NCBI GenBank assembly: GCA_963402885.1
Contig: OY727095.1
Span: 8,747,001 to 8,811,000 of the forward strand
Source: Antedon bifida
Lineage: Eukaryota; Echinodermata; Crinoidea; Comatulida; Antedonidae
DNA length: 64,000 nucleotides
Direction: 5' to 3'
Shown here piece by piece: positions 8,521-57,425 of this stretch (positions within the stretch are counted from its first letter, which is position 1; every line of letters starts with the position of its first letter). The notes under the pieces were generated by a model that had not been told where the DNA came from, did no database searches, and worked only from the letters and a program-made list of their open reading frames with translations. Position numbers and translations under genes: made by a program.

Positions 8521-8569
8521 AGAGTAGGGTGCATTTGGGAGAATATAGGAATGAAGATGTAGGCCTACA

Positions 8570-10830
8570 GGTAGTGAGATATGCAAGATGTGTGGAGAGG
8601 TAATTTGCATTCTGTTATTTTGTACATGCAATTCGAGGAATATAATTAATTTCGGTATTATACCATACCATTATATACTTTAATTCAATCGCTATCTATA
8701 CCCATATATCTCGATAAACGTTTGTGCAGTTAACGCGTCAATAGGCAAATGTTAAACGTTTGACAGTATCATGATGACGCTAACGATTTCATAATGCATT
8801 TTCACTTATATCATTTAACGATACCAACATTTCCATGACAACAGTGTCGCGACGATGATAATGATATAATCTGCATTTATAAAATGCAATCAAACATTTA
8901 ATAATCAAAAGTGCGGCACATATTATCGTGAGAAGTTGCAGGGGTCAGTGTGCTCTACATCTGGTGTCAGAATTTTTGCAAATTTATTCAAATTAAATTG
9001 GTTACGTAAGCATGACTGCATTGAAAATGGAGAAATAAACACCGAGTGCTAAAAAATGTCGTATCGTATATGATTATTAAAATATCTTTGCTGTGTGGGG
9101 TAGGCCTACTTCCAATGTGTTTCACATTGTGTTTTGACCCACCCGAACGACAGCAAGATGTTGTCTATTTAGGCGCGGCCTATGCATGTTTTTAGACCAA
9201 AATGTAGAGGCTTACGTCACACTGACTGACACCACATTGTTCTCCACCCAAAAGGTTGCACTTAGTTTTTACGTTAAACTAGGCCTAACTTCGGATCCAA
9301 GTCTTTTATTTAACAGGTAAAAAGCATAATATTTTAATATTTAGTACTGGTAGTATTTTTATGCTGACATAAAGATAGAAATCAAACATTGAATGAAAAT
9401 ATTCGGTAAAACCAGGGAAGAGTGAAATTCTTCCCTGGTAAAAACATGGAGTTAACCATGGTAAAACAAACGAAATTATACGTGAAAAATATACGTGTGT
9501 TGAATTAAAGGCTTTAAAAATAATTGTTTAAAATTTTTTTGTTGAATATGCCATTTTAATGTTCATGCATAATTGGATTGGAAAACTATCTACCTGAAAA
9601 AACTGTAAACAAATTATAGTCCAATTGACTAATGGGTTTCCGTTTGTTTTGTCAACATGATTTGAAAGCTTGATTTTGTCCCCGATTTTTTTTCTGCGGA
9701 ACAACTACAAAATGGCCATTCAAAATCTGATTTTATTAATCATCAATTTTTGGGGGACAATATATCTTTATTCGAATTCATTTTTGACAAATTCAAAATA
9801 CTGGTTGAATGTACTTTGCTCTGTTCATATGACTTTAATAATATTTAAATATTTACTAATGGCTTGCATATCCATTGTTGTTTGTTCATATTCTATATTA
9901 TATTTGAACGTCAGCACTTAAAACGTTGAGCAAATTCCAAGATGGATGTTTGCGTTGGTGTGTATAAAGCTTAACAAAATAATGAAACCGCGTCTAATAG
10001 TCTGATTTATAAACGACTATTTTCCAAGTATAAAAATGTGATGAAATTAAAATCTCTTGTATTTATTAGGCCTTTCTCTTAAAGATGTATTGTCTCCCAA
10101 AAACCTGAAAAATAATGAATAATAAATCAGACTTTTAAAAAAATTAAATAATTTTTAATATATCTTTAATTAAATAATCTCGGTATCGTACGAAGGCTCT
10201 AAGCCTATTTGTGTTTGGAATCACATAATAATAGGCCTATATAACGTTATTTTGAAAACCAAGGACATCATTGTTATATTCCAAGGTTCACAGAAATACA
10301 TTTATTACATATTATTAAATATCTATATATTGTTTATGGCACAGTATGTATAAAACACGTTTGGACCTCCGGCCTATTTGATGATAACGTAGAAACAACA
10401 CGTGTTTGTGTTGCGTCGTTTTGTTTAATTATTGATTATGAAGACGCGACATACATTACTATCATTATTTATGTCAAAGGTTCAAAACAGCTATTAAGTC
10501 TACTTTATCGTCGCATAATGCCTTTAAATGAATTTCTTTAATAAATGAACTCCATTAAATGCTGCTCGGTCATTTAATTATCGAATACGGTATTTCTAGT
10601 TTAATAATATCGTCGTGAATATTACAATTATTCTTCGAAAATACCACGCACCATTATTGATCGCCCTTAAATTATTGGATTCAGACAAATAATAATTAAT
10701 AGTATTTTCGCAGACATACATAAGCCATAGATTTTTTCTTTTACTTTTCTCGCGATCTACTTAAACAAATAAAATAAAAATATAAATTCAGTTTTACTTA
10801 GATTCAAGTGTCAACAATTACCACAGTGGC
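8570..10830. other. Gene-free interval
   Basis: AT-rich DNA with no convincing exon on either strand. It holds TAGGCCTA octamers at 9101, 9280 and 10232 (one lies just upstream at 8560) and a short perfect hairpin at 9411-9439. The longest open frame (about 9670-9921) is hydrophobic and AT-driven and is not supported as a gene. Confidence 0.5.
9411..9439. repeat. Short perfect hairpin, ACCAGGGAAGA stem
   Basis: ACCAGGGAAGA (9411-9421) and TCTTCCCTGGT (9429-9439) form an 11-bp perfect stem with loop GTGAAAT. Related hairpins occur near 46,651, 56,046 and 56,130. Confidence 0.75.
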
Positions 10831-10922: not shown

Positions 10923-10923
10923 T

Positions 10924-11234: not shown

Positions 11235-12151
11235 CGAAAAAAAATCGCATCGGCCTCATTACAAGATCGTGTGTCCAACTCTGAGGCAATTCTCACAGGG
11301 CTGTTTCTATATTGGGCATGTGAACAGGTACCACAGGTACCATAGGCATGTCTGTTTTGTTCCAATAATGCTACTAGAAATGTAGTCGTTAACCAATTAA
11401 ATCAATTGTTTTTTTTTTGTCTTTTATGGGCTCGTCCCACTTTTATTTCAGTTTGCTGTACAAATTATTTCAATATATACAAGTTCTCTATATAAGGCAT
11501 ATAATATGTGTATTCTCTTGTATTATTAAAATTAAAAACAAAGGTCATGTTCTCCATCTTTTTTTGTCACATGCAAGTGACGCAGTGCATATTAATCAAA
11601 ATTGTTTATGTACAATTCAACACCTTTGGATTCGTATATATCTGATAAAATAAATACAATTTATGGACCTTCTTCACTCCTGATAAATAATTAATGTCAA
11701 AATATTGAATCCTTCTCAGTAGCAATGGAGGCATTCAAATGACGAGCATAACCTGCAAGTCCCTCGTTTGTTGGTATAGGCCTATTAGAAAAATAATATA
11801 TTGTTTTATACCTACGCCGCATCACCCCCACCCCCATATGACATTTCTGGATGTCCCACTGGGTAGCGTGTATTACTTTTTAAAAATCATACTATTCGGT
11901 ACTTGATGAGAGGTTCTTTTTGTTATTTTAACAGATCACCATTTTTTGTTGTCCGGAAGCTCATTTATCCAGGATAACATGGAAGATCGCAAGTAGCGTC
12001 TACACCCGCATCGGATCGATCAGACCAAGTTGAGATATTGAAAACCGCTTGGTCACAATCGACAAAATGTTAATTATTTTTCAAAAACCAAGGCTCATTG
12101 ATTCCAAATTCTATATTTAGTAGCTCAATACATTGTATTTTGAATTTTCTT

Positions 12152-13467
12152 TTAGGATTTATCATAAATCAATATCATTGCTAGCAGTGTGACGATGACC
12201 AATACTAGTGGATTCAACTTTACAACGCATGTGGTGTTTCCCGCCATAACATCGTTACAGTCTGTCGTGTTGCAACAAGTTGTACACTTTCTATCAAGAT
12301 ATCCTAGGCCTTCGTAAATACAGCCTTCCTGGCACTTTATTTTTTCAATGCAGTTCCGACGATAGTTTGTTATGACGCTATTTCTTCTTACTTCATAAAT
12401 CTAAAAAGGTAAATTTAAATAATAGAAAAATATAAAAATCATCAACAATTAATGTTTAAGAAAATAATAATATAAGCATAATGCTTAAGTGCGTCTGTAC
12501 CACCAGGGCTATACCCACATGTATGCATACACGGTATGGACCACTTCGCATATTATTCCAATGCGAAACAGTGAAATAGGCCTACAGCAACCAAAACTCA
12601 TTCCCTCCTTTTCTGGGATACCATATTTAGACCCTGTTATTGGTTTTAAGTCAGTTCCCTCTTTCAGGGATTTTACATACATAGGCCTAGTCGACACTTT
12701 CTCGTGAAACGAAGAACGGACAATATTTAAGCACACTATTCTTTCACAGGTTTCTCCTTATACTTTCCCGTGAAACGAACGACTGTACTATTTTAACTTA
12801 TGAAAAACTCCTATTAAGGGGACACTTCTAATGGAACACATTGTCGAGGCTTCGAGGGTGTCCTTTTAATAGAGGTTGCATTATAATACTTACATAGCAG
12901 GTATCTTCATGTGGTTGACATTCACGTGACGTATTTGTCTTCGGATCCTCCAACCAGAAACACGGTTCTGCCGTTTCGATGTCATAGTTCTCTCCCGGCT
13001 TCAATAGGTACTCACAGTCAAAACATTTTATTGTTGATGCTGTAAAAGGAGAAATAGATATTTATACCATATTTAACCACTAGGTTCTCTGTCAATTTAA
13101 ATCTTCCCCTCCCCAACCACATGGGACTATAAGTCAAGATAAATTTGTTCAATTACTCTTATTTAAAAGTCAAATAAGATTCAATTATTCGACTTTAATT
13201 ATTGTCATCAGGAAATAGGCCTAACCATTAAAAATGTTTTAGTAATAGCCTAGTAAGTGTATAAAGAAAACATTTAAAGTAGACCTAATTTATAAATATA
13301 TCCGCGCGTCGTTCTACCTGTTTCATCATTTATCTATTAATTTCGCATGTCACTGATCAAATAAAGAATAAAAATAATGATAAAAATGATTTAAATTTAC
13401 CTTTTGGTGGCCCTGATGTAAAGATAAGCAGCGTGATCCACAAATATATTAATGAACAGCAATTCAT
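12152..13467 (-). CDS. Ly6/uPAR (three-finger) domain protein, secreted or GPI-anchored
   Basis: Three minus-strand exons (13401-13467, 12894-13039, 12152-12400) join in phase with GT-AG borders to give 153 residues. Residues 1-18 look like a signal peptide (MNCCSLIYLWITLLIFTS). The mature part opens with IKCFDCEYL and ends its cysteine-rich region with TTCCNTTDCND, the hallmark CCxTDxCN close of LU domains; cysteines between (CFW, REC, DTC, NC, KC, GC, KC) suit one three-finger domain. The last ~20 residues (LNPLVLVIVTLLAMILIYDK) are hydrophobic, as in a GPI-attachment signal or a single membrane helix. Such proteins act at the cell surface or as secreted ligands; partner unknown. Start chosen because it opens the signal peptide. 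Each exon is small, so the gene is easy to miss. Family confident, orthology not assignable. Confidence 0.85.
12800..12885. mobile_element. Fragment of a CTATTAAGGGGACA-type DNA element
   Basis: CTCCTATTAAGGGGACACTT and GGGTGTCCTTTTAATAGAGG are inverted relative to each other, as in related copies at about 33,972 and 34,877. It lies in intron 2 of the Ly6-like gene. Confidence 0.5.
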
Positions 13468-16405
13468 AGTAATGTCTTGTTTTGTTTTTAATTTGTGAGT
13501 TCAAACTGGTCTCAATCTATCGTATAGGTAGCCACCTCATATTTTTGCAGTATAAAGGCAACACTTTCTGTAAACTGGCACGATTGTCGAATGTCACTAC
13601 GTGCTTTGATGACGGTTTAACATACAATTATAATCAACTTAAATGATCCTGATTGTATTCAAATGTTTAATCTAAAATATTGAAAAGAAAACTAACTTTA
13701 GATTTTACTTTTGTTGTGTACGGGTCTTCACATGAAGACTGTGATTCATGTGTTTTGAAAATATTAAAACCAATTGATGTGTTTTGTACCATACCATACG
13801 TAGGCCTATATTTAACTCAACATATTAAAGATGTATTGTTCCCTAAAAACACGAAAAATAAAGATTAATAAAATCAGACTTTGAATAGGCCATTTTGTTA
13901 TAAAGTTAATCACTTCCGTGGACCTTTTCACCTATAAAATGACAAAATAAATGAGCCAATTCAACTAAAAACCCAATGACTGTCAGCCAATTTGACTATT
14001 TTTTGCTTATTACAGTTTTTTAAGTAAATAAATTTTTGTTCGATCCAATTTTTTGTCAAAGTGGATAACTATTAGGTGGCATATTAAAAAAAAAATGTAA
14101 GAATTATTTTTTTTCAGGGGGAAAATACATATAATAAGCTATGAGTAAAGGGAAGGTGGAAACTGCAATTGAGAGGTGAACGCACGAGTGCAAGTTGCAT
14201 CATCTCTAGCACAACTTTCACCCCAGAGTTTATGATGTTTTCATCCCTTCACTGGCGTTGGGATAAACCCTACCAGTTAAATAAACCAGTGGCCTATGTC
14301 CCAATGAAAAGGAACTAACTAATATCTGATCTGATTAAACCGTTTAGTTAATAAGAAGTAAGAAAATACTTACTTTATTCATATTTTAAAATGTTTCCAT
14401 CCAACATTTCGTTCGCGAAAACATATCCAAGAGTATAATGCATGACGAATGTACGTCAGGTCGATCTTCCAATATCTTTGCTACATCATAAATAAAGCCG
14501 TTTGGTTTTCATGCCGATGAATTATGATTAGTTTAAAAAGGCCTATTCGGTGAATCTTAATGGGTTTGTCAACAAACCCTGCAAGCAATGCGATTGGCGG
14601 AATAATGTTGCATGTTAGTCTATAATATTATCGTCTGCTTTCCTCCGATGTAATTAATTTTCTTTAGAGTTGAATATTGCCGCAGCCGGAGGATAATTCT
14701 AGCAAGCATTGACTCTTAATTAATTGTCTCTCATCGATTTCTATGATTATACAGATCATGGATTGGTATAACACCGACAATATTACAAATTCAATTATTT
14801 TACAAGTGTATTGTCTAATTATAGATCTTGCATGCACGCGCGTGCGCATTAATATGCAAAATCGGTATACGTCAAATTATAAATTCCAAAAATTGATTTG
14901 TGGATTTTTTGATCAGTTTATTTTGATATCTTTCCCAAGAAGAATATTGATAAAATATAACCTTGATATTCGACCATTCAAAAAAAAATTATTGATTAAT
15001 GATAATGATATATTGACATTGTGATATTGAACATTAACAATGTAATTGGTGTAGAAGAACTATCTAATTTCGTGTAAATGTTGTTGTACGTTGCTATGTA
15101 AGTATCACATGGTAACATAATAGAAACTATTAAATAAATTGGTGAAGATGAAGGCCGGCTAATTTTGGTTCCGTATCATGACAATCGCACGCGGAGTATT
15201 GTACTCAAATAGTTATAAATTTTATTTTTTTAAAAATGGTTCTAATTGTTCAAAAATTGATTTACGCCTAAACTACAACATATAAGATTGTAATTATTAT
15301 CTGCAGTTTGTTTTTATTCAGAAGTCTGGTATTAAATATTATTTAACTATATTTAGTAGATTTCATATTTAGCCTCCATATTTTATATTTTACTTCGGTT
15401 TGGGGTTTTTTTTTGGCATGGTTGGAATTCCCTTTTTCGTATTAGTTTATGTACAGCTCCTAGAGGTTTCACAACATTAGGCGTTACCAGGATATTATTA
15501 GTATTATTCATTTTTTTTGGCCATTTTCATTTATCCAACTGTAGGCCTATTTTATAATAGCCGATAATGTTCAGAGTACAATTACAATTATTTTCTTTAA
15601 ATCATCAAGATGATGGATACGATAGTAATTACGTATATGAGTTAATAATATAAAATAAATAAATGTTTGGGAATTTGAAAACGAGAATAAAAGGTCTAGG
15701 AGGTCAAATATTCCGGAGCCTAAAAAAGTTTGAACAAAATATGGTGGCGCCCGTTTATTATATGATGATGAGTAAACACAAAAACAATCAAACTGCGAAA
15801 ACGAGGCAAGTTGTCGATGTGGTTGTGTTTAATTTATCGTAAATTTCTGACGTCTGTTCTAAATTTAACGTAGTAATCACAATATTAACAATTTAATAAC
15901 ATTCACTTACACCAAGGTAAAGTACGAACGACTGTATATAGGCCTAAGTCTCGTTTAGCTAACCCCGTTTATAGGAAATGAAAGCTAGGCCCTTGTTACT
16001 TGTTAGATTAGCCTACTCTGGTCAAGACTCAAGTCAGGTTACTCCCCGGCCCGGCCTACTATCTTGCCCCGTCACCAGCCAGAGCTGTGCCGCCTAGCCT
16101 GGCCAAAGTAGAATCTGACATCCATGCATGACCTGAGTGTAATGTGATCAGAAATGTAGCCCTAAATTTAGCTTTTAGAAAATTTAGACGACACATTGGG
16201 ACATACATTAGTCATCATACTGTATTTTGAATTATTAATTTATTTTTTAATACAAATTTTCATTTCTTCCAGTAAAAATATATGCAAATATAAAGAAAAG
16301 AGGCAAAGTCAAGAGGGAAAAGTGTCGAGGAAAACAATACAGATCGTAAGCCTACGAAGTAGCCGTTGTTGTGAGAAATTAGGCTAGTACTACACTCACA
16401 GGACC
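13468..16405. other. Intergenic interval between the Ly6-like gene and YKT6
   Basis: No exon recognised on either strand. TAGGCCTA occurs at 13801, 15542 and 15939. The last ~450 bp before YKT6 are less AT-rich (CCCGGCCCGGCC near 16,050) and probably contain its promoter and 5' UTR. Confidence 0.45.
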
Positions 16406-18361: not shown

Positions 18362-18998
18362 CTGTTTCTGCATGAAACATTTTCTATTGTCATGTCAAGT
18401 CTCGTCAGTGAAGTCCCGCCTCAAGTAAGGATTCCTAAAGTGCTGAGGTTGGGGTAGTATGAACAATGTGAATGGACTTAGCATTTTTATACTATGAAGC
18501 GGCTGGCAGGAGCACCATCTGTGGAGTGTCCTAACTGGGAATAAAGGTATTCGTCAGTGTTCTGGTGACAAATTCATACATTTCAAATCCATATGTCCTG
18601 ACTTTCGAAGAGAAAGACTTGTTTATATTACATAGTAGGTTTGAATATATGGTTCTTGGTATGTACATTTGTGGCAATTGGATTATGAAATGCTAGAATT
18701 AATATGAGCTGGTATCACGATTCCCTAGCTATCTTGCCCATGTTGTGTTTATTGTTATATGCTATATAAATGAAACCATTTCCTTTTAAAATGTATATAA
18801 ATATAATGCTATAGTAACAGATGTTAAATACGAAGTATGTACCATCGTCAATTGTATTACTTACAATTTTGTTGAGAATGGGTGTAGGCTCGCTAGAAAG
18901 TTTTCCAGTCATTTAATTTAACCAAGAGAAAATTTTTGCTAATTGTGCATAAATCTGATTACCCAATTCAGGATACTATAATCTGTAAAGTATCGCGT

Positions 18999-19162
18999 AA
19001 AGCTCTGTCTACACTATCAAAGTTTATGTGACAAAAAATGTGATGTGACCATATATGGACATGATGTCATATCACTACCATATTTGGGCATACTGTACAT
19101 ACAGTAATTTGGGCACATCACACTTTTTTTTTCAAACTAGTTTGATAGTGTAGACAGAGCTT
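18999..19162. mobile_element. MITE-A copy
   Basis: Both terminal repeats present (AAGCTCTGTCTACACTATCA and its inverse), flanked by TA-rich sequence, with a small internal insertion ACTGTACATACAGTA. Lies downstream of YKT6. Confidence 0.9.
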
Positions 19163-19530
19163 AATACATGTTATATACAATATGTATCACATAAACCTAT
19201 CCTTAACACAATACTGTGTCATATGTGATACATGTGCCTACTTTATATTACAGAATCTGATACTTATGTAGATATAGTACAGAGTATCGGGCAATCTGTT
19301 TTACATTTCTTGTTCTTTTGTATAGTTTAAACTAAGTTCTTTATAAACCACAGAATTTTGTCTGCACATAGTAGCAAGTAAATCACCAAAACTGAACCAA
19401 TGTGGATTGGGATTATTGAATACCTCAGTATCATGAAAATATGTTTAGATTATTTTTTGCTATTTTATTAAAAATCGTAGATGGTATTATAGTCTAACTC
19501 AATGTGATTGGTGCTTCAATAGATAAATCT

Positions 19531-19690
19531 AAAGCTCTGTTTACACTATCAAACTACTTTGACAAAAAAAAATGTGATGTGCCCATATATATACGGGTTA
19601 TCATATCAGTACCATATTTGGTCATAATACTACCATATTTGGGCACATCACACTTTTTTGTCAAAGTAGTTTGATAGTGCAAACAGAGTT
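19531..19690. mobile_element. MITE-A copy
   Basis: Left end AAAGCTCTGTTTACACTATC, right end TTTGATAGTGCAAACAGAGT. The subterminal arms TGTGATGTGCCC are conserved. Confidence 0.9.
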
Positions 19691-20929: not shown

Positions 20930-22760
20930 CTTAGAACAATAGTAACTAGTTATGCCAACAAATAAATAGGAGAATAGAAAATGGCCAAAATATCGACTTT
21001 TTTAAAATTATAATAATATTTATTCGGCAAAAGTTCTTAAAAGTATGTTTTACATTTCATCTTGCCAGGAGCAAGTAATAGGCATGAGCCCAATAAGAAA
21101 ACTGCTCTTACTCTGTCAAATTCAATTATTATGCGATAATATGGCTATATATACGTATATTTTGCTTTGTATCATCTTATAGAGCCATAGTAACCAGTTT
21201 TGTCGAAAAATAAAAGGGTCGAAATTTTGCCATTTTTGGAAAAAATCCCTGTACTATAGTACAGGGATTTTTTCGAAAAATGCCCAAAATATAGACTTTT
21301 TTTAATTCAATTATTATGCGATAATATGGCTTTATATACGTATATTTTGCTTTATATCATCTTATAGAGCCATAGTAACCAGTTTTGTCGGAAAATAAAA
21401 GGGTCGAAACTTCGCCATTTTTGGAAAAAATCCCTGTACTATAGTACAGGGATTTTTTCGAAAAATGCCCAAAATATAGACTTTTTAAAATTCAATTATT
21501 ATGCGATAATATGGCTATATATACGTATATTTTGCTTTGTATCATCTTATAGAGCCATAGTAACCAGTTTTGTCGAAAAATAAAAGGGTCGAAATTTTGC
21601 CATTTTTTGAAAAAATCCCTGTAGGCCTACTATAGTACAGGGATTTTTTCGAAAAATGCCAAAAATATCGACTTTTTAAAATTCTATTATTATGCGATAA
21701 TATGGCTTTATATACGTATATTTTGCTTTGTATCATCTTATAGAGCCATAGTAACCAGTTTTGTCGAAAAATAAAAGGGTCGAAATTTTGCCATTTTGCC
21801 TGATTACAGGGATTTTTTCGAAAAATGCCCAAAATATAGACTTTTTTTAATTCAATTATTATGCGCTAATATGGCTTTATATACGTATATTTTGCGAAAA
21901 ATGCCCAAAATATCGACTTTTTAAAATTCAATTATTATGCGCTAATATGGCTTTATATACGTATATTTTGCTTTGTATCATCTTATAGAGCCATAGTAAC
22001 CAGTTTTGTCGAAAAATAAAAGGGTCGAAATTTTGCCATTTTTAGAAAAAATCCCTGTACTATATAATAGTACAGGGATTTTTTCGAAAAATGCCCAAAA
22101 TATCGACTTTTTAAAATTCAATTATTATGCGATAATATGGCTATATATACGTATATTTTGCTTTGTATCATCTTATAGAGCCATAGTAACCTGTTTTGTC
22201 GAAAAATAAAAGGGTCGAAATTTTGCCATTTTTGGAAAAAATCCCTGTACTTAATAGTACAGGGATTTTTTCCAAAAATGCCCAAAATATCGACTTTTTA
22301 AAATTAAATTATTATGCGCTAATATGGCTTTATATACGTATATTTTGCTTTGTATCATCTTATAGAGCCATAGTAACCAGTTTTGTCGAAAAATAAAAGG
22401 GTCGAAATTTTGCCATTTTTGGTAAAAATCCCTGTACTATAGTACAGAGATTTTTTCGAAAAATGCCCAAAATATAGACTTTTTTTAGTTCAATTATTAT
22501 GCGATAATATGGCTATATATACGTATATTTTGCTTTGTATCATCTTATAGAGCCATAGTAACCAGTTTTGTCGAAAAATAAAAGGGTCGAAATTTTGCCA
22601 TTTTTTGAAAAAATTCCTGTACTATAGTACAGGGATTTTTTCGAAAAATGGCCAAAATATCAACTTTTTAAATTCAATTATTATGCGATAATATTGCCTT
22701 ATATGCGCATATATTGTGTTATCATCATCGTATAGTTATGCCAACTAATAAATGGCCAGG
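20930..22760. repeat. Tandem array of ~185 bp units, each with a palindromic hairpin
   Basis: TAACC(A/T)GTTTTGTCGAAAA blocks occur at 21191, 21376, 21561, 21752, 21997, 22187, 22374 and 22559, so eight good units at 185-191 bp spacing with one stretched to 245 bp. Most units contain AAAATCCCTGTACTATAGTA followed by CAGGGATTTT, a near-perfect palindrome of about 34 bp. Other shared blocks are ATTATGCGATAATATGGC and TATATACGTATATTTTGC. Degenerate units flank both ends. One unit carries GGCCTA inserted in the palindrome at 21622-21629. Long open frames across the array are by-products of periodicity. Confidence 0.93.
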
Positions 22761-27363: not shown

Positions 27364-27895
27364 GGTAATTCTGAAATAAAAGAACATTCATTAATATGAA
27401 AAAACAAACAAAAATGTAAGTTAGTAGTAGTCGTTTTGATTTGAATAACTGTATCATTAATCAAAACTCTAAAATGAAACAAAGAAAAGGAAAAAAAACA
27501 GCCTTCATATTTGATAGCTACCTACAGAATAATTTATTTGTTTTTTTTGGATAAATATTATAGGCCTATTATTTATTTATTAAATTTGTTTCTTAATTGT
27601 TTCTATCTATTTATGACGTTATTGAATAATAATTATGCCTAGGCCATAGTAAAATATTTTAAAAGTATCTCATTGAAAAAAAGCTTAGCTAGGCCAGCCA
27701 GGCCTGGCCTACACCGGCACATGATTGATATCGGTGCGCTGCGAGCGTTTGTATTTTAGGGCCAGGCTAGCCTAAATTAGACTAAGGTGAGACTTGAAAG
27801 CGGTAGCTGACTTTCTGGTTAGAATTAGGCTTCTTTCGATAAATTAAAAAACGTATTATTCACAAATACATATATACCTATTATAAACTTACTCT

Positions 27896-41669: not shown

Positions 41670-43491
41670 TTAGGCGACTGTGAAAGAAATTTCCATGACT
41701 TGGTCTAGACCAGCCACAATGACATCGCCAGACTTTACTGGTCCAAATCCAGAGGGGGTTCCAGTTAAAATAACATCGCCAGGTTCAAGGGTCATCGAGC
41801 GACTAATATAACTAATAAGTGTTGGAATTTTAAAAATCATATCACTTGTGTTTCCGTCTTGACGCATATCTCCATTAACGGACAGCCATAATCTTACATT
41901 ATCAACATCTTTTACACAATCTTTTTCGACAAATTTACTAATGGGACAAGACGTGTCAAATGCTTTTGCTAGCGTCCACGAATGACCTTTCTTCTTAGCA
42001 GTATCATGAAGGTTTCTAGCAGTCATGTCAAGACCCAGAGCATACCCACCAACATAGTTCATTGCTGATGCTTCTGGGATGTTGGAACCTTTGGTTCCGA
42101 TGACAATTCCAAGCTCAACTTCATGGTGAAGGTCTGTACAACCAGGAGGCATCTAAAGCATTAACAAGAATTATTTGTAGATGTTGCAATGCTGAATTAA
42201 TTATCTATTATTACCTATATTAGAAAATAAAATCTAATAAATAGAGGGGTGTGATGGTGTCTCAAAGAAGGGTTTCTATATAGACTGTATTTTCACTAAA
42301 AACAACCAAATGTATATAAAAACAAATTTACCTTAATTGAGTTTCCCTCTGGTAAGTATGCTGTAGTCGGCTTTAAAAATAACAGTGGTTCTGTTGGAAC
42401 TTTGTTCCCCAATTCCACAGCATGATCTCTAAAAATATGTAAAAAGACAGTTTAGTAAAATTTTAGATACACAATTATCTAGGGGACCTAGGCTATTAAT
42501 TTATTGGTTGACGGTAACTCCCTGCAAAACAATATGGCCATAAATAAAGTATTGTAAATGGAAGTTTAGTCTAGGCCTAGGCCCTTGTACACTTCTAGTA
42601 GTAGCCTGGTTAGTCTCTACCATGTTGAAGCAATATTAGCAATTTCTTTAATAACAAGAACACTTGGTATAGACGACGCATGGGGTTTTAAATAAAGATG
42701 CATCATTACACTTAAAATGCGTGTCATTCTTTTCAGTATCGGTCATCAAATTTGATTTCACTGCTGCTCAACTAAGACTTCCATTTATATTAGATTGTTG
42801 CTGGTAAATCAAGTAATTATAAAGTGTTAGTAGAGAAGGTTGGTGAAATAAAATTAATATAACTGTCAATCTTTGAGGCTCCATTTCAAACTCCGCCTTC
42901 TAATTTGCATGTTATAACGTTCTGTAGTAGGCTCAGCACACAAAATTAATTTTGTCGATATAAAATGAATTTTGCCGACACAAAATTAATTTTGTCGATA
43001 CAAAATGAATTTTGTCGTCACAAAATGAATTTTGTCGTCACAAAATGTATTTTGTTGTCACAGAAGTAATTTTGTTGACACAGAATGAATTCTGTTGACA
43101 CAAAATGAATTTTGTCGTAACAAAATGTATTTTGTCGTCACAGAAGTAATTTTGTTGACACAGAATGAATTCTGTCTACACAAAATGGATTCTGTCTACA
43201 TAGAATGAATTCTGTCGTCACAGAATTGTTTTTGTCCGAATAGAATCAATTATGTGTCACATAATTGTATCATTATGTCGACAAAATGAGTAATGTCCCG
43301 AACGTAGGATAGACGTCAGATAGGATAGACGTCACTGGTCTGCTGAGTGTTTGTTTACTAGCAGTCAGTCTACATTTAGGCCTAGCTAGGCAGACGTACC
43401 TGCTAACTAACGAAGGCTACTAAACTTACGCATAATTTCTACCAACACACACAATCTTCTTTCCCAATTCTACAAAGTTCGACAGACTCAT
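41670..43491 (-). CDS. FAHD1: FAHD1 paralogue, copy B, intact
   Basis: Exons 43430-43491, 42332-42428 and 41670-42152 have the same lengths as copy A (62, 97, 483 nt) and give 213 residues. Exon 3 differs at six positions: Gln to His and Ala to Thr in the RNLHDTAKK stretch, Pro to Ser in GHSWTLAK, Arg to Cys in KDCVKD, Asn to Asp in VNGDM, and Val to Phe in GTPSGFGPV. Exon 1 has Lys5Asn and exon 2 Glu to Asp (NYADHAV, the human-like residue). Metal-binding Glu/Glu/Asp and the active-site Lys are unchanged. The Phe sits in the usually invariant GTPxGVGP motif and could alter substrate fit. No stop or frameshift, and splice sites are intact. Whether both copies are expressed cannot be told. Confidence 0.94.
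42937..43265. repeat. Palindromic minisatellite, 20 bp unit, ~16 copies (FAHD1-B intron 1)
   Basis: Unit CACAAAATGAATTTTGTCGT with variants CAGAATGAATTCTG. Each unit is itself near-palindromic (CAAAAT/ATTTTG), so the array can form repeated cruciforms. Absent from the matching intron of copy A. Confidence 0.92.
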
Positions 43492-44649: not shown

Positions 44650-46118
44650 GAAGAAAGAAGAAGAATCAGACGGCATATGGCTCTACTAATTTCATTTTTA
44701 CCAACTTGTTCTTTTTATTCACAATTGTTATTAGAACATTGAATGTATTTCCCATTAATGCATACTGTATGCTAATGATATAAATGAAAATGATTTTTCC
44801 ACCGATGAATTTACTGTCGCAAAAATTTTAACAATGAGACTAGACTTTGATTTTTATTTGATTTATTTCGCCACCATTTTTCGACTACCGATATTAACGC
44901 CACGCCTACATAATGGTCTGTTCGCATTTTCTAACAATTTTTAATAAATCCAAATCATTTGTAGATTATACAACACATGGCTAAATTTCTCACACATACG
45001 CAGACAATAAATAACTTGAACCATGCATTTTTTTATGAGCATAACTAAACGATTAAACCTGAATAAACTAAACGTATACAATTAGAGATGAAAATGCAAC
45101 GTGTCTGTTACAAAAATAACATTTCTCTCTGGTAGCTGATTTCAAAAAAGGTTTTTAAAATCCTACTATATAGTATTAATAGATGCTGCCGTATAATATA
45201 TTAATATTATTATTATTCATACACAAAGAGTGCGTCGGAAGATATTTCTTTATACCGGTACCAGGACATTTGAAAAGGAAAATACTGTGCCTTCATTAAT
45301 CAATATCGAATGGAAATATTCTGGTAAGAGAGCGGTTATTTTTATAAATATTAATAGGCCTGTAATAAATTCGTAGTAGATATACGGGAAGTTTGCATGA
45401 TATTAGCAAAAACAACTAGGTTTATAATTTAGATTAACCAAAATATTAAGTTAAATTATTACGATGATCAATAATAATAATAATATAATTATTATTTTTT
45501 CGTTCAATGTCGTGTGTATTTATACCAATTACCAAACAATTACGGCCTAAGAGATGAGTTGAAACAGGGATGTAATATGTTTATGTATACCACCTCCTTG
45601 GTTGAAAGTTCATGAAATAAATAATTGTGCGACGACATAACGTTACATATGTGGCTAATACTATTTTGTTCACAGAATTATTTCTTTTCCCTCCATTATT
45701 AATACGTGGAAGGAAACCATTATAATACATATTTATTTCCTCTATGGCAGTAAGCCTATACAGTAGTATTGAAGTTTTATCTTCCCTGGTTTTACGTTAA
45801 ATGGCGCGTGTCTTGTTCTCATGTGTACACAATGCCATATTTCAAAGTGTACGACGTCTGATACAAAAACACAAGGATTTCCGACACGCGACTAAATTGC
45901 GAAGTGTGAATGATTTCAATAGGGCCTAACAATGAATAACAAAACATTAAAAGGAATACATCCTAATGATTAATAAAAGCATGGAATAATCATTTCTCAA
46001 TGATAAATAAAAAACCTCAACGAATTCCGGACACCTGTTGATCAAAACGATAGGTCTTCAACACCAATAGGCCTACCTTTTTATGAGGCTATCCCTCCAT
46101 GTTTGAATATCATGCTTT
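44650..46118. other. Gene-free interval
   Basis: AT-rich; nothing recognised except a TAGGCCTA octamer at 46,068 and ATCTTCCCTGGTTTTACG at about 45,780, half of the ACCAGGGAAGA hairpin type. Confidence 0.45.
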
Positions 46119-47416: not shown

Positions 47417-50400
47417 ATCCTTTGTTTGCAAATTCAAATCATAATATACGCATACGCTGAGTGGCAAGCGATAAAAAAAAATGCTAGATTTCGTCAAAAT
47501 TATGCTATTTTTAGTCATTATTGCTTAATGCTAAATGGGTCAAAATTATGCTAGATTTGGCAAGTGTGCGTTCGTTGGGACATGTAACCAATTCTTCCGT
47601 GGTTGTATCATGGAGCTATAAAATTGTATAGCTCCATGGTTGTTGTACCTATGACAGGCAGAACTATACCACAATGCAAACCCGGTTTCTTTTACCTGAT
47701 TGTGTAATCCTGTATAAAGTTAAATATTAAATAAAATATACTGAACACACATACAATATTGATTTTTAAATATTGTTATAAATATTACGTTGGTGTATTA
47801 CGTCAGAGATGTTTTTGAATGATTCTCGTTTACATAAACAAACAGGTAAAAAAGGTCACCGTTGTGGCAACATCAAAAGAAAAATATATAAAATGTTCAA
47901 ACATTAATTACGAATTACGTCAGAATTGAGAAATACTCTGGCACAAAATAATATATTTCCACTTCATATGAAAATAGTGCTCTGGTGGCCTTGCATTATA
48001 AAGGTTATCACTTGAATGGAATAACTACCTAACTTAACACTACAATCGTATAAACACAATAATATACATAATATTTTTAGCCTATATATCTTTCAGTGAC
48101 GAATGAAATTACTAATTATTTAATGGTTAAAATTGTATTTTTGTATGCGTATGACCCCATGAGTTGTTCTGGGCATCAGTGGTAAAATAAAGTTGAACTA
48201 AATTGAATGATTTAAATCACCCATGCAAGTAATATCAATGTATTACTTTAGATTAGGCCTAGGCCATTACAACGACAAGAACTGGCACGCGACCTTTTTG
48301 ACGCGTGTCTTCTTTTGTCATTCAATTACCACCACTGTATCTGGTATAAATTAATTGTTACATAATCGATACGTAATTATTTACCATTAATTAATAACAC
48401 ATTAGTTTAATTAAAGGATAATTAAAAGTACCCATCTATTAATTTGTATTGTTATGGGTCAAATTTCAATGCATCTATCTTTTCCTGATCGCGCAAACAA
48501 AGACCCAAAATATACGGGTTAAAATTCCATACTACAATGGAGTGCAGTTTGTATAACTGATATCAAGAGAAAAATTATGCAGTCACTTTAAATAATAATA
48601 ACGCACGCGCCCGCATATACCATGTGTGCTGGTATTCAATGGGTATATAGTATTCGAAAACGGTTGTAAAAAGTATTTGACAACCTTTGAGTGCCTCGGT
48701 TGGTCTACAGTACAGCAGAAGTCACGATACATCAAAGTGATTTTACCAGCATTCAAGTTGACAAATATTACTACCAATAAAATGTAATAGCACGTCAGGA
48801 CCATTTCGTTGAGGCGATAAATGTTTACAAGGATTGGTTCAGGTAAGTTGATTTAATTTACAAGTTTTAAAGTTAATAAAATACGTCGTTCGCAGATTTA
48901 TAATATTTATAATATTACTAATAATATTAAATACGCACTGGTTTGTAAACTGTATTGGATTGTCATATGTACAGTTTTAAAACATGTCATGTACGGATAT
49001 ATTTCTGACACAAGAGTAAATAAATTCAATATTATTGTTGAAATCTAAAACCAAATTAATTATTTTAAATGCTAACACAAACCAGAGTTTTAATCTTAAG
49101 TCCCACGTATGGAACTTATAACATTAGGTGAACGTCAACATTTTCTAGCTTTTTTAGATTTTCCGCACAAGACGGTTAGGATTGGCTGGTGAAATCGCAA
49201 TACCTATTTCCTTGCAACATAATGAAATGTAGGCCTACTAAAAATATAAATATACAAATTAAATTATAAAATGTTATATGAACAATAATTTACAGTTTAA
49301 GACTAAGCTTATTATTTGACCATGTAGGACCTATTATATCCATTATACCGGTAAATCATGTTATTATACTGGTAATATAATCTAAATTTTAACATGAAAT
49401 AAAGCTATCGATAAATTTCTTCAATTTTTCGTAACTACTATACATGTATACATGAGCATATGATCCGAATATGTTTAAAAACAAAATGATTTTACGTAAT
49501 ACAATAATTAGTATACCTCAGATATGTAATAAATATAATCTATTTAAAATAAATATTTATACCTCTATGTACTAGGTAATTATTTCTCCATGCTCAGACA
49601 ATATATTTTTATTTAGGAGATTTTTTATTTTATCTAGTCATCATAGACATAATGGCGTCAATTTCAATGAAACTAAACCGTCATTGTATAAACCACAGAC
49701 CCGCACAAATTATGATTTGAATATATTTTGAAAGTTGTCGTTTGGACTCTACCATTTTATTAACGGGGGCGGGTAGATACCCAACCACTATTAATTTATA
49801 CAATTTGTGGGAAAATTTTCTCCCATTTATTAAGAACTTGAATGAATCTTAATCTAGACTTCGGCTAATTCAGATTTACTCCAGAAATGTGCGTACTGGC
49901 GCCCGTTGAATCCCATCATTTCTGTTGCGTATTTAATCAGAATGTTACTGTGTAGGCATAGGCCTGCTCAGTTTGTATTTAAAATAGCATAACATCATCA
50001 ATACCAATCTAAAGATGTAAACATTTTTGGTTTGTGAAAAGTAACATGTAGTTCGTAGGCTGACTGCTAGGCATAGAACAAAATGAGTGTAAATGAGAGA
50101 AAATAGATAAAAAATACATGACTCAACTCAAATGAATGTCAAAATGTTATTGGAAAAACAAAAATGTCTAGTGGTAGGCTCTGTCTATGCATGCAAAAGA
50201 TACCGTGAATTTAGTATTTATTTTTTCACAACGTTTTCTTTCTAAATGTACCAATTTCGTTCTTGTGAAGTTACAGGCAAAAAAATAATTAAATTCAGCA
50301 GATCAGCTGGTTGGTTTTTCCCAGGTACGTTTTCTACAAGGTCATGTGACCGTGATAATGGGCATTGTCACACTGTATCATGTCCGTTATAACGATTGCA

Positions 50401-50947: not shown

Positions 50948-52142
50948 TACTTTACCTGTACATTGCTGCTTAATAAGGTATTAGTAAATATTTCATACGT
51001 CATCATGGTGAACTATCTGGGTCATATAATCATCATCTATTCATTATTTTCACCATCGCAGGTATTGGTGCCATTCATCTATATTGATATTTTAAGTGTT
51101 TACCATAAATATTGTACGGTAGTCTTATATACCGGTATTGGTACAGTTACCAATGACGTCATTAATATCATCACAAATATCATTTTATTTCCAAAAACAC
51201 TAAAGGCCACCAGCTGTGGCAGCAATACAAAAAATGTTCTCAAAACTTATCATCATCATCATTGTTACCGACTACTTTCAAAAGTATAAATTTACTAAAA
51301 TTAAAACATAATCTTGGAAATAATAATTAATATTATAATGGCATATAGAAAGTACTATGTAATATTAATTAACAAAATTATTTTTTACATTTTTTCCCCT
51401 TTTCAGAGACTTTATTAAATAAATTCTTTTAAATTAATGTTTCTTTATAGGCCTACAATACATTACACATCAATAATAATTATTTTTCCAGTCGAATTAT
51501 TATTGCATTATTAACTTGTTAACACATTAAAATGTCTGCTAAAGTTCGAGTCGTCACATGTTTGACAGCGCATATCCGCCACCACGTGATCATCATTATA
51601 GAAAAAATGGTTTGTGTGTGGTTCTTGCTTGGTCGTTGTTATTATTACCAGAAATAAACATATATCTGGACTACTACCGTACTTGTGTATTTATAATGTC
51701 AAAACGACTCTTTTCTGTAACATTAACTCCTGATATGGTAAGTATTAAAATAGTTATTATTATTACGTAACCAAACATTTTTAGTTTTTTTCTTTCAACC
51801 AAATCGTAAAAAGATAAAGTTATATAATGTTGAATAATTGCGCTTTACTGTATGGACAGCACGTCATCAACATAATCAAATAATAGCCTATCGTCAAAAA
51901 TTAATTAAACAAAAATCATATGTACAAACAAAGTGGTTTTATCGGCTGGCATAGTAAATGCCATGGTTTCCCCAACTTACCGTACGTCGTTATTGGTTCA
52001 CGAAATTAAACAAACATTAATCGTTGGAAGGAAAGTAATTCTGTAATTAATATTAATTCTGAAATTAATATTCACGGTCTTTTTAGGTCTGCTTGATTTG
52101 CCAATGAGAAATAAGTACAGTGCACCAAGTTCGGTGTAGTTC
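50948..52142. other. Gene-free interval
   Basis: Several medium open frames, none with recognisable domains or consistent splice sites. TAGGCCTA at 51,448. Confidence 0.4.
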
Positions 52143-52305
52143 AAGCTCTGTCTCCACTTTACACACACTTTATGTGACAAAAAAATGTAACCATGTCCAT
52201 ATAATGGACATGGTGATGTCATATCACTACCATATTTGGGCATATTACTACCATATTTGGGCACACTTTTGTTGTATAACTAGTTTGATAGTGTAGACAG
52301 AGCTT
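52143..52305. mobile_element. MITE-A copy
   Basis: Ends AAGCTCTGTCTCCACTTTAC and TTTGATAGTGTAGACAGAGC; the left end is more diverged than the right. Confidence 0.88.
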
Positions 52306-52877
52306 ATAAATCAAGACTCTCAGTACATGGCTGTGATCAGTGATTCTACGAATAGTCCTAAAAAGAATAAATATAAAAATCAGCAGTTTACGATACTTAC
52401 GGATAGGCCTGTGGTATGTTTCCTTACTTCAAATATTATGATTACTGTAGGCCTACAATTAACGACATTAAGATTCATACCGATGATGAACAACGCGACA
52501 ACAACGTGTTGCTTCCTCTTCCTGCGTACAAAACGGTACGTTAGGAATTCACATAAGGTCAGCAAGTTATGCATAACTAATTAGCACGTGTACGGTACCA
52601 CCAGCTCCATGCTATTACTATTAATTACAATGCTCTAAATATTTACTGAAGAATTAATGTTGTCATCTCTGTCATTTATGCTTTATTTTGTATTATATAG
52701 TCATGAATGAGAGATGAGCGGTAGTCCAGAACATCAAAGTAATGGTGAATCTATACTAGGCCTATAATATGGTTTATGGTAACCAAATTCCCTTTGATAA
52801 TATATATAATCATACTGTTACATTATTGAAACAGTGCTCATATTCGGAACATGATCTCATACTCGCGTCGAGCATTA

Positions 52878-54489
52878 CTGCCCTGATTTACGAAAGGGCA
52901 TTATCTCAATTTTTTTCAAAATTGAGATTTTTGTCTTACATGACTTTTGAGGGTATAATCTATCATTTAAACTTAACAGCTACTAAAAAATTTTTCTATA
53001 AATATTAAAAATATTAAAAAAATTAAAATCAGTTTGGGCATTATCTTTATTCATACCTACAAAAAATTCAGTAGAAAGCATTATCTCAAAAAAACAATAC
53101 ACAACAGGAAATGATCGCTTGACTGCACACTGCAGCAGTAACAATTATCCAATCAGAGGTCGACTTGATGCATGCTAATTAGCACGCTCAAACTATGTTT
53201 GTAGATGTTAACTAAAATAAATTGAATACTTTTAATCAAATTATTGTATTTGACAACACTAAAATAAATTTATGCGGATACCAAACTAAAATGGAAGAAC
53301 ATGGCTGCAAAGGACATTTTCAAGAGCCTATTGAATGAGTAGGCCTAAAGTTTAATACTTTTTATTACTTATGTCTTCGTTATTATCCTTGAAAATGTAA
53401 AAAAAGTCCAATGGTCATTTGTAGTGTTTTCCAATTGATATTTAAATCAATGTCAAGCAACTTTTGTTATAAAACAATGGCATTGGGAAATTCGTATTAT
53501 AGTCTTTTGAATTACATTTTTTTTTGGGTGTGGCTGTAAGTAAGCGTAGTCATTACATTGAATTCCATTACATTGATTATTCCTTTACATTGATTATTCT
53601 ATTACATATTAATATATTTGCATAATATTAATAAAATTGTACTTTTTATAGACAACAAAATGTCTCATACCGACTTCTACGCATACCAAACGAAAAGAAG
53701 TACTTTTAAAAAGGTTGAAACAAAATTATACTGGAAATGTGAATATATGGATACCAGTTATATGTCTAGAAAGTTTTTAAAGAAAAACAGGAACTCCACA
53801 AATTAAAAAAGACAACATAATAAAAAAAATTGATTCCACAAACAGAAAACTTTTGGAAAAATCCACCAACTTCAAACGTACGCAATCTGTTACAAATGCA
53901 TAAATATATCAAATACAAAACTTGTAAATATAATGCATAAAGCAATAATCTGTATCAAGATAGAAAATGCGATAAATTACTGTAAATCAAGTTTTTATAT
54001 ATGGTTGTTTTATGTTTTTGTCATCAAATTTCATGAAATCCTTCCAAAGCGAGCACCACAATCCCCCCCCCCCTAAACCAATCCCCACCCCCACAAACAC
54101 CTCCCCACCCCTTGCCCAACAGCCACATGTTACTCCCTCTCATTAACTTTACCTATCCCTACTGCAACATATTTGTCTTGTGCTATTAGATTAGTTTTGT
54201 AGTGTACATTCTATGTAAATATAGAGATAATGCCTTTTGTTAAATTATCTATTGTTATTAGTTAGTATGAATAATTTACAAGAAGGAATTATCTCAATTT
54301 TGACCCCCTAAAAAATAAATTATTAAAATAAAATTCATGTTACATATTTTCTATATATGTACTAATACCTATTATAACTGAAAAACCATTAATTTGTCTC
54401 TAGATTTTTAAAGATAAACTCAAACACGTTTTGCTTATTTACTCAAAACTACATTTTTTGAGATAATGCCCTTTCGTAAATCAGGGCAG
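52878..54489. mobile_element. 1.6 kb DNA transposon with perfect 32-bp TIRs, non-autonomous
   Basis: The left TIR (52,878-52,909) starts CTGCCCTGATTTACGAAAGG and continues GCATTATCTCAA; its exact inverse ends at 54,489. The motif TTATCTCAA recurs near both ends (about 53,083 and 54,287), like transposase-binding repeats. The interior has no transposase-like frame; the longest open frame is about 60 codons at 53,618-53,806. Contains a C-rich tract at 54,068-54,115. No clear target duplication (CATTA left, CATAG right). Superfamily unassigned. Confidence 0.85.
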
Positions 54490-57425
54490 CATAGCTCATC
54501 GGCGAAAGTTATGGCTCTGTGGTAGTTGGCTCAGAAATCGAGGCAATATGCCGAATGATATTTTTCGTTTCTTAAAAATGAGTTGACGATGACTTGGCAC
54601 GAAATATATAAAAAAACATGCAATTCATATGATGCGCAACGTGACGAACTATTGATAGATAGGTCATAATATTTAATTACAGTTTAGCATGTGACCAGCG
54701 TTGAAAACTTATAAGGGTAGGCTACTATTAAAGGGTGTGTCATTCGAAAAACAGCCTTTGTTGTGCTATCATCATTCACCATGGTTCCTTTGCAACGTCT
54801 GCTCCTCCTGTGTCTGTCTGCACTTTCTTACTTCTAGGCCTCGGCTACATCTTTCCACAGGTTGCAACAGTAGACCAACAATGGTTACAAACGATTCTAG
54901 ATATGCATCAATGACCAGCTACGGACACAGTTCTTCTCAGTTTTCCTTATAAAGTAACATTTTTTTTTTATTTTAAAAGGGACGATTTTTAAATCTATTT
55001 TTTAAAATGTATGTGTTTAACTGTAGTTAGCGGATGTGTGCTATAACTTTAGTGACACGAATTTTACGTGCGCAATGGATATTTCGTTAGCGTAGCGTTA
55101 TTGTGAATCCATGCGAGCAAGAAAAATAATTAGATATCATGTAGGCCTATATTCTATTATTATTAGACCTAAACTATTTTTATACCGTTATTTTAGGTGG
55201 AACCTGCTTTTCTTTAAAAGGTTTGCATGGCGAATGCAAACTTTACTTTACTCTTTTAGAATAACATGGTTTACGGAAAAGCTGACTGTATATGTATTGA
55301 CTGTTGAACAATGCTACAGTCACGCAGTTCCTCTATGCTACGGTCAATATTTCTTTCCAGTGATAACACAATATCGATAAAAATGAAAAAAGTCTGAATG
55401 CGTAAAATATGTAACCGTATACGCAGACGTTCTTTCTAATGGACATACTAGTTTTGTTTTCTCATACGTCCAACGCCTTCTAGGTAGTACTGTCTTTCCT
55501 TCTCCTGCAAGACATCGTTACAAGACTCCAGCTTCACAAATCTATTTGAGCTGGTACGAATCATCCAGTCGATACTCACTGGTCCTATACTAAGTACTAG
55601 TGCCGCAGGTGTTAATATCAATCATCCCTGTTGTGCTTGTACTTAACATGGGACTTAGTATTATCATCAAGTGATATCATTTGATACAGTAATCAATATT
55701 CAACAAGGATCATCGCAAACATTAGTAGGCCTATACCAATCCAAAATCGGTTATCGGAAAACTAGTTTATTGGAAATGTTATCTACCGCGTGTTAAAACG
55801 TTTTTTTAATGTAATTTAATGTAGGCCTATTCAACAATTTTACCTGAATGACCCCCAGGAGAGGGGGTTTGATTCATACGAATACCAATACATTAATGTT
55901 TAATGTCCGTAAGCTATATAGGCTATATGATTCACTGCAAGATCATGTTAGTTTTGTAAACCGAATACAGTTTCGCTTTGACATGCATGACATAAATATA
56001 TCACATGGTACATTATATCTAAAAACAAACAAATGTTGATAATCGGACCAGGAAAGAAGAATCTCAATATTCCCTGGTCAAATAGGTGTCTCTATCTGTA
56101 TAGTAATGATGTATGCATTAAAAATAGGCCTGATCAGGAAAGAACCACTCTTCCCTGGCCTAATTAAAGATAGCTCAGCCTCGATCAAAGAAACGTTTTT
56201 CTTCGATTTACGCTTTTGTAAATTGGCAACGATGCATCACTAGAGTACCAGTATATCTAATTCATATTGGCGCTTGCCCATACGACCGACCTCGCTTAGC
56301 CGAGGACAAAATACTTTCAAGAGACACCACATTTTAATAATGTGGGTAGGCAGAAAGTTGTAAAACTATATAGTTAAGACTATAAAAGTGAACTCGCAAA
56401 ATTTCACAATTTTAAAGTCATAACGTTTCCATGGTAGATTATCAGGCGCAGATCCACAATTCAGAAAATCGAGGTGGGGAGGGGGAGGGTATCCAGATGA
56501 GGGGGTATCCAGGTGGGGAGAGGGGGGTTAACGTAACATATGTTTTAGGGCTATAACTTCTTTTCTTGGTGCACGCTATTTTGTTTTCTTAAAATGAATC
56601 ATTTTAAATTCAACTTTATGATTGACTATATTGTTTGTTTGTTTGTGTATTATAATAGTTTTGGTACATACTACAGACTGCAGCTACGATGTGGTTATTT
56701 ATGTGTAAGACAATGAAAATGTTTATTATTGTTTTGGGTCAAATAAAAAGTTAAAAGAGTTGTAAGGGTTAAAACCATAGAGATATTACAGTTCACTATA
56801 ATATCCCTATGTTAAAACAAACATTGCATTGATAGGCCTCTCTCTAAGCATAGAAAAAAAAACCACAATATCATGATAGCCTATCACTGTTAATGTCGCT
56901 TCACAAAATAACAACACATTGATACTTAATAAATATATATCCAAATTACGATTTATGTAAATATTTATTAAATTATTATTATTAACATCTTTTCTTATTT
57001 TAAAATGTTTTTCTTATATTTAGCTTAAATATAAATTTAATAGTCTACAATATGGTCCCATTAAATTTGATGTCAATATAAAAAAAAACCATGATTAAAA
57101 TATTTATGACTTTCTTTTGAAGTGATGTGTGGGTAATAAAGCAGGACAGAAAAATGTGAAAATGTTCAAATTAAAAAAAACCACACAACTTTATAATGTT
57201 TATTACATACATGCAGTAATTATTTTAAAATTCGGAATAATGTTTAAATCATTTATAAATACTATAATTAGGTTAAATAAAATATTATTATTACAATAAA
57301 ACAATAACAACAACTTTGGAGCCAACAAAGTGTCCGAAGTGGTGTCCACTGGACAGAGGTTGGTCATAGTGTTAAAACATATACTTCTCTTGGCGGTGGC
57401 ATAATGGCTATGAGCACTCATTTGC
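54490..57425. other. Gene-free interval
   Basis: No supported exon. Contains TAGGCCTA at 55,142, 55,726 and 55,822, a sequence near-identical to the 50.9-kb exon-like block at about 55,590, two ACCAGGGAAGA-type hairpins (56,046-56,079 and 56,130-56,160) and a G-rich tract at 56,463-56,530. Confidence 0.4.
56463..56530 (+). other. G-rich tract with quadruplex potential
   Basis: GGTGGGGAGGGGGAGGGTAT followed by GAGGGGGT and GGTGGGGAGAGGGGGG gives at least four G-runs within about 35 bp. Confidence 0.5.

Follow-up and report, generated by a model that had tools for sequence, protein, structure and literature searches.

Introduction

The closest described systems are transposons that target TA. 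Tc1/mariner transposases place their 3' cuts precisely at the element ends and their 5' cuts some nucleotides within the element (a passage in PMC2170065), the scars of mariner and Stowaway elements retain the target-site duplication with bases of the element ends and are closed mainly by end joining (as summarised in part of PMC4561436), and TACAGTA and TACTGTA appear as canonical Sleeping Beauty footprints in sections of PMC4378557 and PMC3432063. Two other systems invite comparison, namely ISL2EU elements, the ends of which usually begin with GG (a passage in PMC4482050), and HIP1 (GCGATCGC), a palindromic octamer of cyanobacteria linked to orphan methyltransferases (part of PMC4390886). 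Here a 64,000-nucleotide stretch of the genome of the crinoid Antedon bifida was analysed (hereafter the window; G000:C8:8747001-8811000, from an assembly of 315.6 Mb in 27 contigs, with 11 of the 20 contigs of noted size above 19 Mb), in which the palindromic octamer TAGGCCTA, GGCC bounded by TA on both sides, is scattered in many copies. Copies that could be traced were gained as GGCCTA at a pre-existing TA, and the octamer is probably the excision footprint of a TA-targeting transposon.

Abundance and flanks of the octamer

The window contains 28 copies of TAGGCCTA, where dinucleotide shuffles give 0.50 (maximum 4 in 100 shuffles) and Markov models 0.56 (order 1) or 0.9 (order 2), a 31-fold excess over the latter. 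An earlier note made from the letters of the window alone (the original prediction) had listed these copies and claimed an excess over composition; on recounting, its coordinates were all exact with none missed, and the excess held. The genome-wide count that it had called for gave 109,821 copies in 315.6 Mb, i.e., one per 2.9 kb, against 1,444 for the same letters reversed, a ratio of 76. An artefact of composition could appeal to the maximal-order Markov expectation for the window, which is 25, but this figure is high only since the words inside the octamer are overrepresented too (AGGCCT, 48 vs. 9 expected at order 2), and it does not explain the octamer by composition. As the order 1 and 2 models, the shuffles, an order-2 model with the octamers masked and the reversed word all leave an excess of about 30-fold to 76-fold, such an artefact has a negligible probability.

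The copies occupy 24 of 128 bins of 500 bp, the widest dispersal for its expectation among window 8-mers with at least eight copies, and flanking homology within the window (matches of at least 60 bp) links only the pair at 40195 and 43377. All 28 lie outside the three exon-like open reading frames (ORFs) inspected (39196-39678, 41670-42152 and 30826-31200), no gene model of the window having been made; the statement in the original prediction that no copy falls in a coding exon agrees with this but is not established by it and carries little weight. The features used below are as follows, without strand except for the array.

8560..8567: TAGGCCTA, exact word count
9101..9108: TAGGCCTA, exact word count
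9280..9287: TAGGCCTA, exact word count
10232..10239: TAGGCCTA, exact word count
11777..11784: TAGGCCTA, exact word count
12577..12584: TAGGCCTA, exact word count
12682..12689: TAGGCCTA, exact word count
13216..13223: TAGGCCTA, exact word count
13801..13808: TAGGCCTA, exact word count
15542..15549: TAGGCCTA, exact word count
15939..15946: TAGGCCTA, exact word count
18998..19164: copy of a PIF/Harbinger-like miniature inverted-repeat transposable element (MITE), terminal inverted repeat (TIR) AGCTCTGTCTACACTATCAAAC, TAA/TTA flanks
21110..22735, plus strand: 185-bp tandem array, with sister units lacking the GGCCTA gain
21622..21629: TAGGCCTA, clean GGCCTA gain in one 185-bp array unit, derived state, by comparison of sister units
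27561..27568: TAGGCCTA, exact word count
28269..28276: TAGGCCTA, exact word count
32207..32214: TAGGCCTA, exact word count
40195..40202: TAGGCCTA in the duplicated region adjoining FAHD1 copy A, common to 43377
42572..42579: TAGGCCTA adjoining FAHD1 copy B, six bp more than copy A
43377..43384: TAGGCCTA in the duplicated region adjoining FAHD1 copy B, common to 40195
46068..46075: TAGGCCTA, exact word count
48254..48261: TAGGCCTA, followed by GGCC
49230..49237: TAGGCCTA, exact word count
51448..51455: TAGGCCTA, exact word count
52443..52455: TACTGTAGGCCTA, a TACTGTA word and TAGGCCTA (52448) with one TA in common
52757..52764: TAGGCCTA, exact word count
53340..53347: TAGGCCTA, exact word count
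55142..55149: TAGGCCTA, exact word count
55726..55733: TAGGCCTA, exact word count
55822..55829: TAGGCCTA, exact word count

Flanks and neighbouring words were analysed in a 174-kb sample made up of the window and 11 further stretches (L132-L142), which holds 82 octamers (81 non-overlapping) against 1.6 expected from the masked order-2 model. When GGCC was placed between every pair of identical flanking dinucleotides (16 words, both strands), TAGGCCTA was found 164 times against 3.3 expected and the other 15 words 0-8 times, the most frequent of them with 8 occurrences where 6.8 are expected; some of the rarest words do exceed expectation, on very small counts, such as GAGGCCGA (3 vs. 0.7). TA is therefore the only flanking pair that makes the GGCC word common in this sample, and among palindromic four-mers with TA on both sides GGCC is far ahead in ratio, the next being TACCGGTA (4 vs. 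1.1). The base preceding the TA is biased over the 164 flanks, T being avoided (22 vs. 53) and G favoured (48 vs. 30), with p 3e-8 for the bias, and TACAGTA has the same bias in weaker form (T 69 vs. 111, G 88 vs. 62; 342 flanks).

One-mismatch neighbours of TAGGCCTA are also in excess (105 vs. 42, ratio 2.5; transitions 50 vs. 14.4), whereas 95 control palindromes gave a mean ratio of 1.03 (sd 0.27, maximum 2.04). This excess, of transitions in particular, is what decaying insertions would give, and the neighbour counts would fit a process that recently began or peaked.

Gain of GGCCTA at TA sites

Seventeen GCTCTGTC words were found in the window, most of them starts of the small element with ends AGCTCTGTCTACACTATCAAAC and TAA/TTA flanks, the latter suggesting a PIF/Harbinger-like MITE. 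The first TIR TA of the copy at 18998..19164, which also contains TACTGTA at 19091 and TACAGTA at 19100, served as the test site genome-wide. Further copies of the family lie at 3491-3653, 17020-17142, 19529-19693, 19854-20018, 23044-23212, 31790-31911, 37668-37798 and 52143-52305, among others.

The empty TIR word CTCTGTCTACACTATCAAA has 15,930 exact copies in the genome, throughout which six-base insertions were sought after CTGTCTA and before CACTATCA, with 2 matches to the reversed control pattern. All 25 insertions found comprised GGCCTA (5), AGCCTA (2), which is one transition away from GGCCTA, local tandem duplications (6) and 12 others (CCTGTA and CACATA, 2 each, and eight singletons). 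Five GGCCTA among 25 are not due to chance, because a random hexamer of the base composition of the window would be GGCCTA about once in 12,000. The seven copies with GGCCTA or AGCCTA show no mutual flank similarity at E 0.001 and differ in their interiors; three of the five GGCCTA copies (L144, L145 and L146) have an empty TIR at their other end, and in L143 and L147 that TIR could not be recognised within the stretch examined. A search of the same site anchored on TAGG returned 51 matches against 32 for the reversed control, and thus much background; 7 of them resume the TIR after GGCCTA (the five known copies and two with variant TIRs) and 1 after GGCTA, 3 read GGCTAT(C/T) followed by AAAC or AAAA, and 40 do not resume the TIR there.

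A TIR subfamily with one extra C was also noted (22 copies among the first 100 of 270 listed insertions of 1-20 bp at this site), all on the minus strand at C7:11.7-18.0 Mb, and seven DDE_1 matches lie on the same strand at C7:13.6-16.7 Mb, hinting at a large spread-out repeat block on C7.

Within the tandem array, the unit at 21622 reads CTGTA, GGCCTA and CTATAG where the sister units at 21245 and 21430 read CTGTACTATAG. The gain is the derived state, since GGCCTA breaks the perfect palindrome of the sister units, three of which provide a perfect empty junction; different small insertions are found nearby in other units (22051 and 22241). The second paralogous case is that of FAHD1, copy B of which is 89% alike to copy A across 1 kb. 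Copy A is the FAA-hydrolase ORF of the window; a major vault protein exon is found elsewhere in the window. Here AGTCTAGGCCTAGGCCC stands against AGTCTAGGCCC, the six additional bp of copy B being equally readable as a duplication of TAGGCC. Across the 174-kb sample, 5 of the 82 octamers have a paralogue across the joined junction, with 1 perfect empty site; for other TAxxxxTA sites (n=1,487), 143 have such a paralogue, with 0 perfect empty sites.

Thus, GGCCTA has almost certainly been gained at TA sites, repeatedly and independently, and most of the 109,821 copies presumably have the same origin. Insertion of GGCCTA at TA, proposed in the original prediction from the array and FAHD1, is borne out by the MITE family, in which five copies whose flanks are unrelated have the gain and 15,930 are empty; the array comparison was reproduced exactly, and so was that of FAHD1, for which the ambiguity with slippage stands. 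The alignment of paralogues and repeat copies that it had recommended revealed clean presence and absence of GGCCTA in both the array and the MITE.

These gains bear on two other explanations. The first is that a (TAGGCC)n microsatellite grew by slippage or by duplication in tandem, consistent with the presence of TAGGCCTAGGCC at 42572, 48254 and other sites, with the duplication reading of FAHD1 copy B and with runs of GGCCTA in local hot spots; against it, 26 of the 28 window copies are not within TAGGCCTAGGCC, and the MITE and array gains took place at a lone TA with no prior TAGGCC. The traced isolated copies did not arise by slippage, although it may enlarge hot spots, and as a general explanation it is improbable. 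The second is a selected motif, such as a transcription-factor site or a methylation-linked palindrome like HIP1, raised by point substitution. A high count, a palindrome and few decayed relatives would suit it, but the clean gains of six bases seen in the array and at the MITE site would not, nor would the obligatory TA flanks or one site per 2.9 kb genome-wide, which is dense for a control site. The insertion data refute it for the traced cases, some sites may have been put to use later, and overall we give it very little credence.

Excision footprint as the probable reading

The reading that we consider probable, with appreciable doubt, is that TAGGCCTA is the excision footprint of a TA-targeting transposon with ends beginning GGC. 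A cut-and-paste element would insert at TA and duplicate it. On excision, the transposase would cut a few bases inside the element ends and leave TA-GGC 3' overhangs on both sides, the GGC overhangs would pair through their self-complementary GC (a four-base stagger would pair GGCC with GGCC), and end joining would seal TA-GGCC-TA, with a net gain of GGCCTA. Overhangs GGC/GGC would close without mismatch, whereas CAG/CAG would close with a central mismatch and yield TACAGTA or TACTGTA. The 5'-end cut of Tc1/mariner elements is offset by two to three nucleotides.

The evidence came from the same MITE TA and from the words between TAs in the 174-kb sample. Among the first 100 of the 270 listed insertions, CAGTA was found 6 times and CTGTA 5 times (control 0), which together with the TA before them read TACAGTA and TACTGTA, the others including CACTA (3), CGGTA, CCGTA and TAGTA (1 each), TA (9) and GGCCTA (2). 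Ranked by z, the words between two TAs are led by GGCC (49; 82 vs. 2.1) and CAG/CTG (17.5; 171 vs. 48). The overhang model predicts some TAGGCTA/TAGCCTA and few TAGGTA/TACCTA. The former were found 45 times against 17.6 expected, besides the one GGCTA at the MITE site, a count that is ambiguous as a one-base deletion from TAGGCCTA yields identical words; the latter were found 73 times against 105 expected. That GGCC derives from element ends, that the ends start with GGC and that the overhangs pair are inferences.

Two other words were noted in this context. A 34-base near-palindrome between TAGGCTA words, CTCTGTCTAGGCTACTATTTATAATAGTAGGCTA, is present twice (G000:C1:22043218-22043251 and C12:15891918-15891951). 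TACTGCAGTA, next in the z ranking (13 vs. 0.2 in 174 kb), was considered as a second full footprint and rejected, 11 of its 13 copies being local repeats in L134 (5) and L135 (6).

The original prediction had offered two mechanisms, a palindrome that spreads by itself and a footprint of a TA-targeting transposase. The second is favoured, because Tc1-type footprints occur at the same TA and TACAGTA has the flank bias in common with the octamer; the first is less favoured and is kept as a possibility since no element with GGC ends was found.

Several observations weigh against an excision footprint. CAG/CTG exceeds GGCC at the MITE site by 11 to 2 (first 100 of 270 listed), and in the 174 kb their excesses are closer, 123 to 80. 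GGCCTA occupies 5 MITE sites against at least 15,930 empties (at most 0.03%), no more than one eleventh of the roughly 0.35% per TA averaged over the genome (109,821 over about 31.7 million TA, from 17,483 TA in 174 kb); the shortfall may be due to age, to the local context (CTAC) or to silencing. Three of the five octamers with a paralogue (40195, 43377 and L137:3118) have no clean empty site, and the empty site of FAHD1 copy B carries one mismatch. Two-mismatch neighbours of TAGGCCTA show no excess in 174 kb (462 vs. 491). CAG is not enriched in two local hot spots, unlike what a simple footprint model would give. Finally, no convincing TA-GGC...GCC-TA element was found in the 174 kb or at 15 DDE_3 loci, a scope in which a source element present in only some hundreds of copies would escape detection, and no inserted element starting with GG was recognisable at the MITE site in the TAGG-anchored search.

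The genome gave 15 DDE_3 and 49 DDE_1 matches, none of them linked to GGC ends, the mariner family PF01359 not being part of the search; the DDE_1 family also includes host genes of the CENP-B kind. GG-ended TIR pairs in the 174 kb traced to a Penelope-like element, of which they formed the inner repeat, and to the GGCCTA-rich hot spot of L139. One candidate source, L161:1046-3080 (GGCCTATAATTATGTT / GGCCTATAAATATATT, 14 of 16 bases, GGCC ends, with a DDE_3 fragment), proved no better than chance pairs: a window octamer pair without transposase reaches the same score (24; 180 pairs), and the part that aligns with other DDE_3 loci covers only 1263-2843, short of the candidate ends. The match of 8 of 10 bases inside these ends, which none of 187 control pairs there equalled (7 of 10 or fewer), is superseded by this alignment test. 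A second candidate, L139:3441-4736, has 116-bp inverted ends and mimics a TA-flanked transposon with CAGT ends; it was rejected as its reading frame looks Penelope-like, with what we take to be reverse-transcriptase and GIY-YIG-like features. DDE_3 frames were also seen near inverted copies of a GGCTCTTTTCAGAGCC stem-loop, which presumably resembles histone 3' ends (L152, about 557-610 and 1306-1356; L155 and L158 alike).

In the hot spots, L128:1430-1760 (C1, about 18.1-18.4 kb) and L139:7310-7750, TA-GGC/GCC and TA-C/G words abound as well as TA-GGCC, with GGCC 22, GGC/GCC 9, C/G 20 and CAG 2 among 138 inter-TA words; they may have been built by reuse of newly made TAs or by slippage. An element-free process would account for them otherwise: a domesticated transposase specific for TA, or else a repair pathway, would join GGCC and another TA straight onto breaks at TA, a self-multiplying micro-insertion in which each TA becomes two, with new targets, 110,000 copies and local hot spots as the outcome. 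Besides the missing source element (in the 174 kb, at the 15 DDE_3 loci and at the MITE site) and the two dense hot spots, this process would suit the clustering of octamers (of 71 gaps, 11 span 100 bp or less, where 3.3 would be expected) and the runs with 6-bp spacing near C1:18365-18407. However, classic footprints occur at the same TA, so that a known process already accounts for this type of event, and we know of no enzyme that adds GGCC and TA directly at TA. An element-free process is rather unlikely in our estimate, and is retained because of the lack of a source element, the low MITE occupancy and the CAG-poor hot spots.

Occurrence elsewhere and significance

Searches of contig collections returned prokaryotic and viral matches, uninformative on whether other animals share the octamer. 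Octamer pairs were found in at least 120 stretches of viral_contigs, and triples at 27 loci of genome_contigs with prokaryote titles, 20 of the 27 with equal or multiple spacing. In viral contigs L080:2626-3905 and L089:4561-4786, 8 and 7 irregularly spaced TAGGCCTA lie within 1.3 kb and 0.2 kb, respectively, and in bacterial loci L169, L177, L181, L186 and L191 (Prevotella/Prevotellaceae, Butyrivibrio and Bacteroides) the octamer recurs at about 22-bp spacing, in the manner of operator arrays. A 20-mer of the MITE had no match in genome_contigs, and in viral_contigs a 23-mer had none and an 18-mer 3. The window also carries two mir-252 genes on the same strand, about 4.7 kb apart (50906-50981 and 55582-55654), with mature-arm regions CTAAGTAGTAGTGCCGCAGGTAA and CTAAGTACTAGTGCCGCAGGTG; these genes, together with the major vault protein exon and the FAA-hydrolase ORF, mark the DNA as that of a bilaterian animal, and a word search with the miR-252 word gave no matches.

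The TAGGCCTA phenomenon was not described in the titles and abstract starts listed for the literature searched, which is no proof of its being unpublished; in the section of PMC1939997 that mentions it, TAGGCC is only a cloning oligonucleotide. Footprints are of a known kind; what is new is a four-base palindromic one in about 110,000 copies whose parent was not found.

If TAGGCCTA is a footprint, the genome preserves countable traces of something like 100,000 excisions by a transposon that escaped detection here, readable by an eight-letter search, and the history of excision, rather than of insertion, becomes measurable for each lineage. Otherwise, a novel process of mutation by insertion, with an invariant product, is at work. 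Under either reading, GGCCTA is a common class of six-base indel, which variant calling and motif discovery in this lineage should take into account.

Comparison with known systems

Like hexanucleotide microsatellites, GGCCTA forms runs in the hot spots, but most copies in the window are single. Like HIP1, TAGGCCTA is a very abundant, dispersed palindromic octamer, but its traced copies come from insertion. ISL2EU duplicates AT inside A-AT-T and Harbinger duplicates TWA, whereas the duplicated pair here is TA. An ISL2EU footprint was rejected, as the AT duplication is not seen and ATGGCCAT is not in excess (8 vs. 6.8, both strands of the 174 kb), and so was a PIF/Harbinger footprint, for which a 3-bp TWA duplication and mostly precise excision apply, given the depletion of T before the TA. 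With respect to Tc1/mariner/IS630 footprints, the octamer differs in its core, the four-base palindromic GGCC instead of three bases, in its roughly 110,000 copies and in that the source was not found. It resembles them in being bounded by TA with few bases between, in being gained at TA, in its dispersal and in the CAG/CTG form found at the same MITE site.

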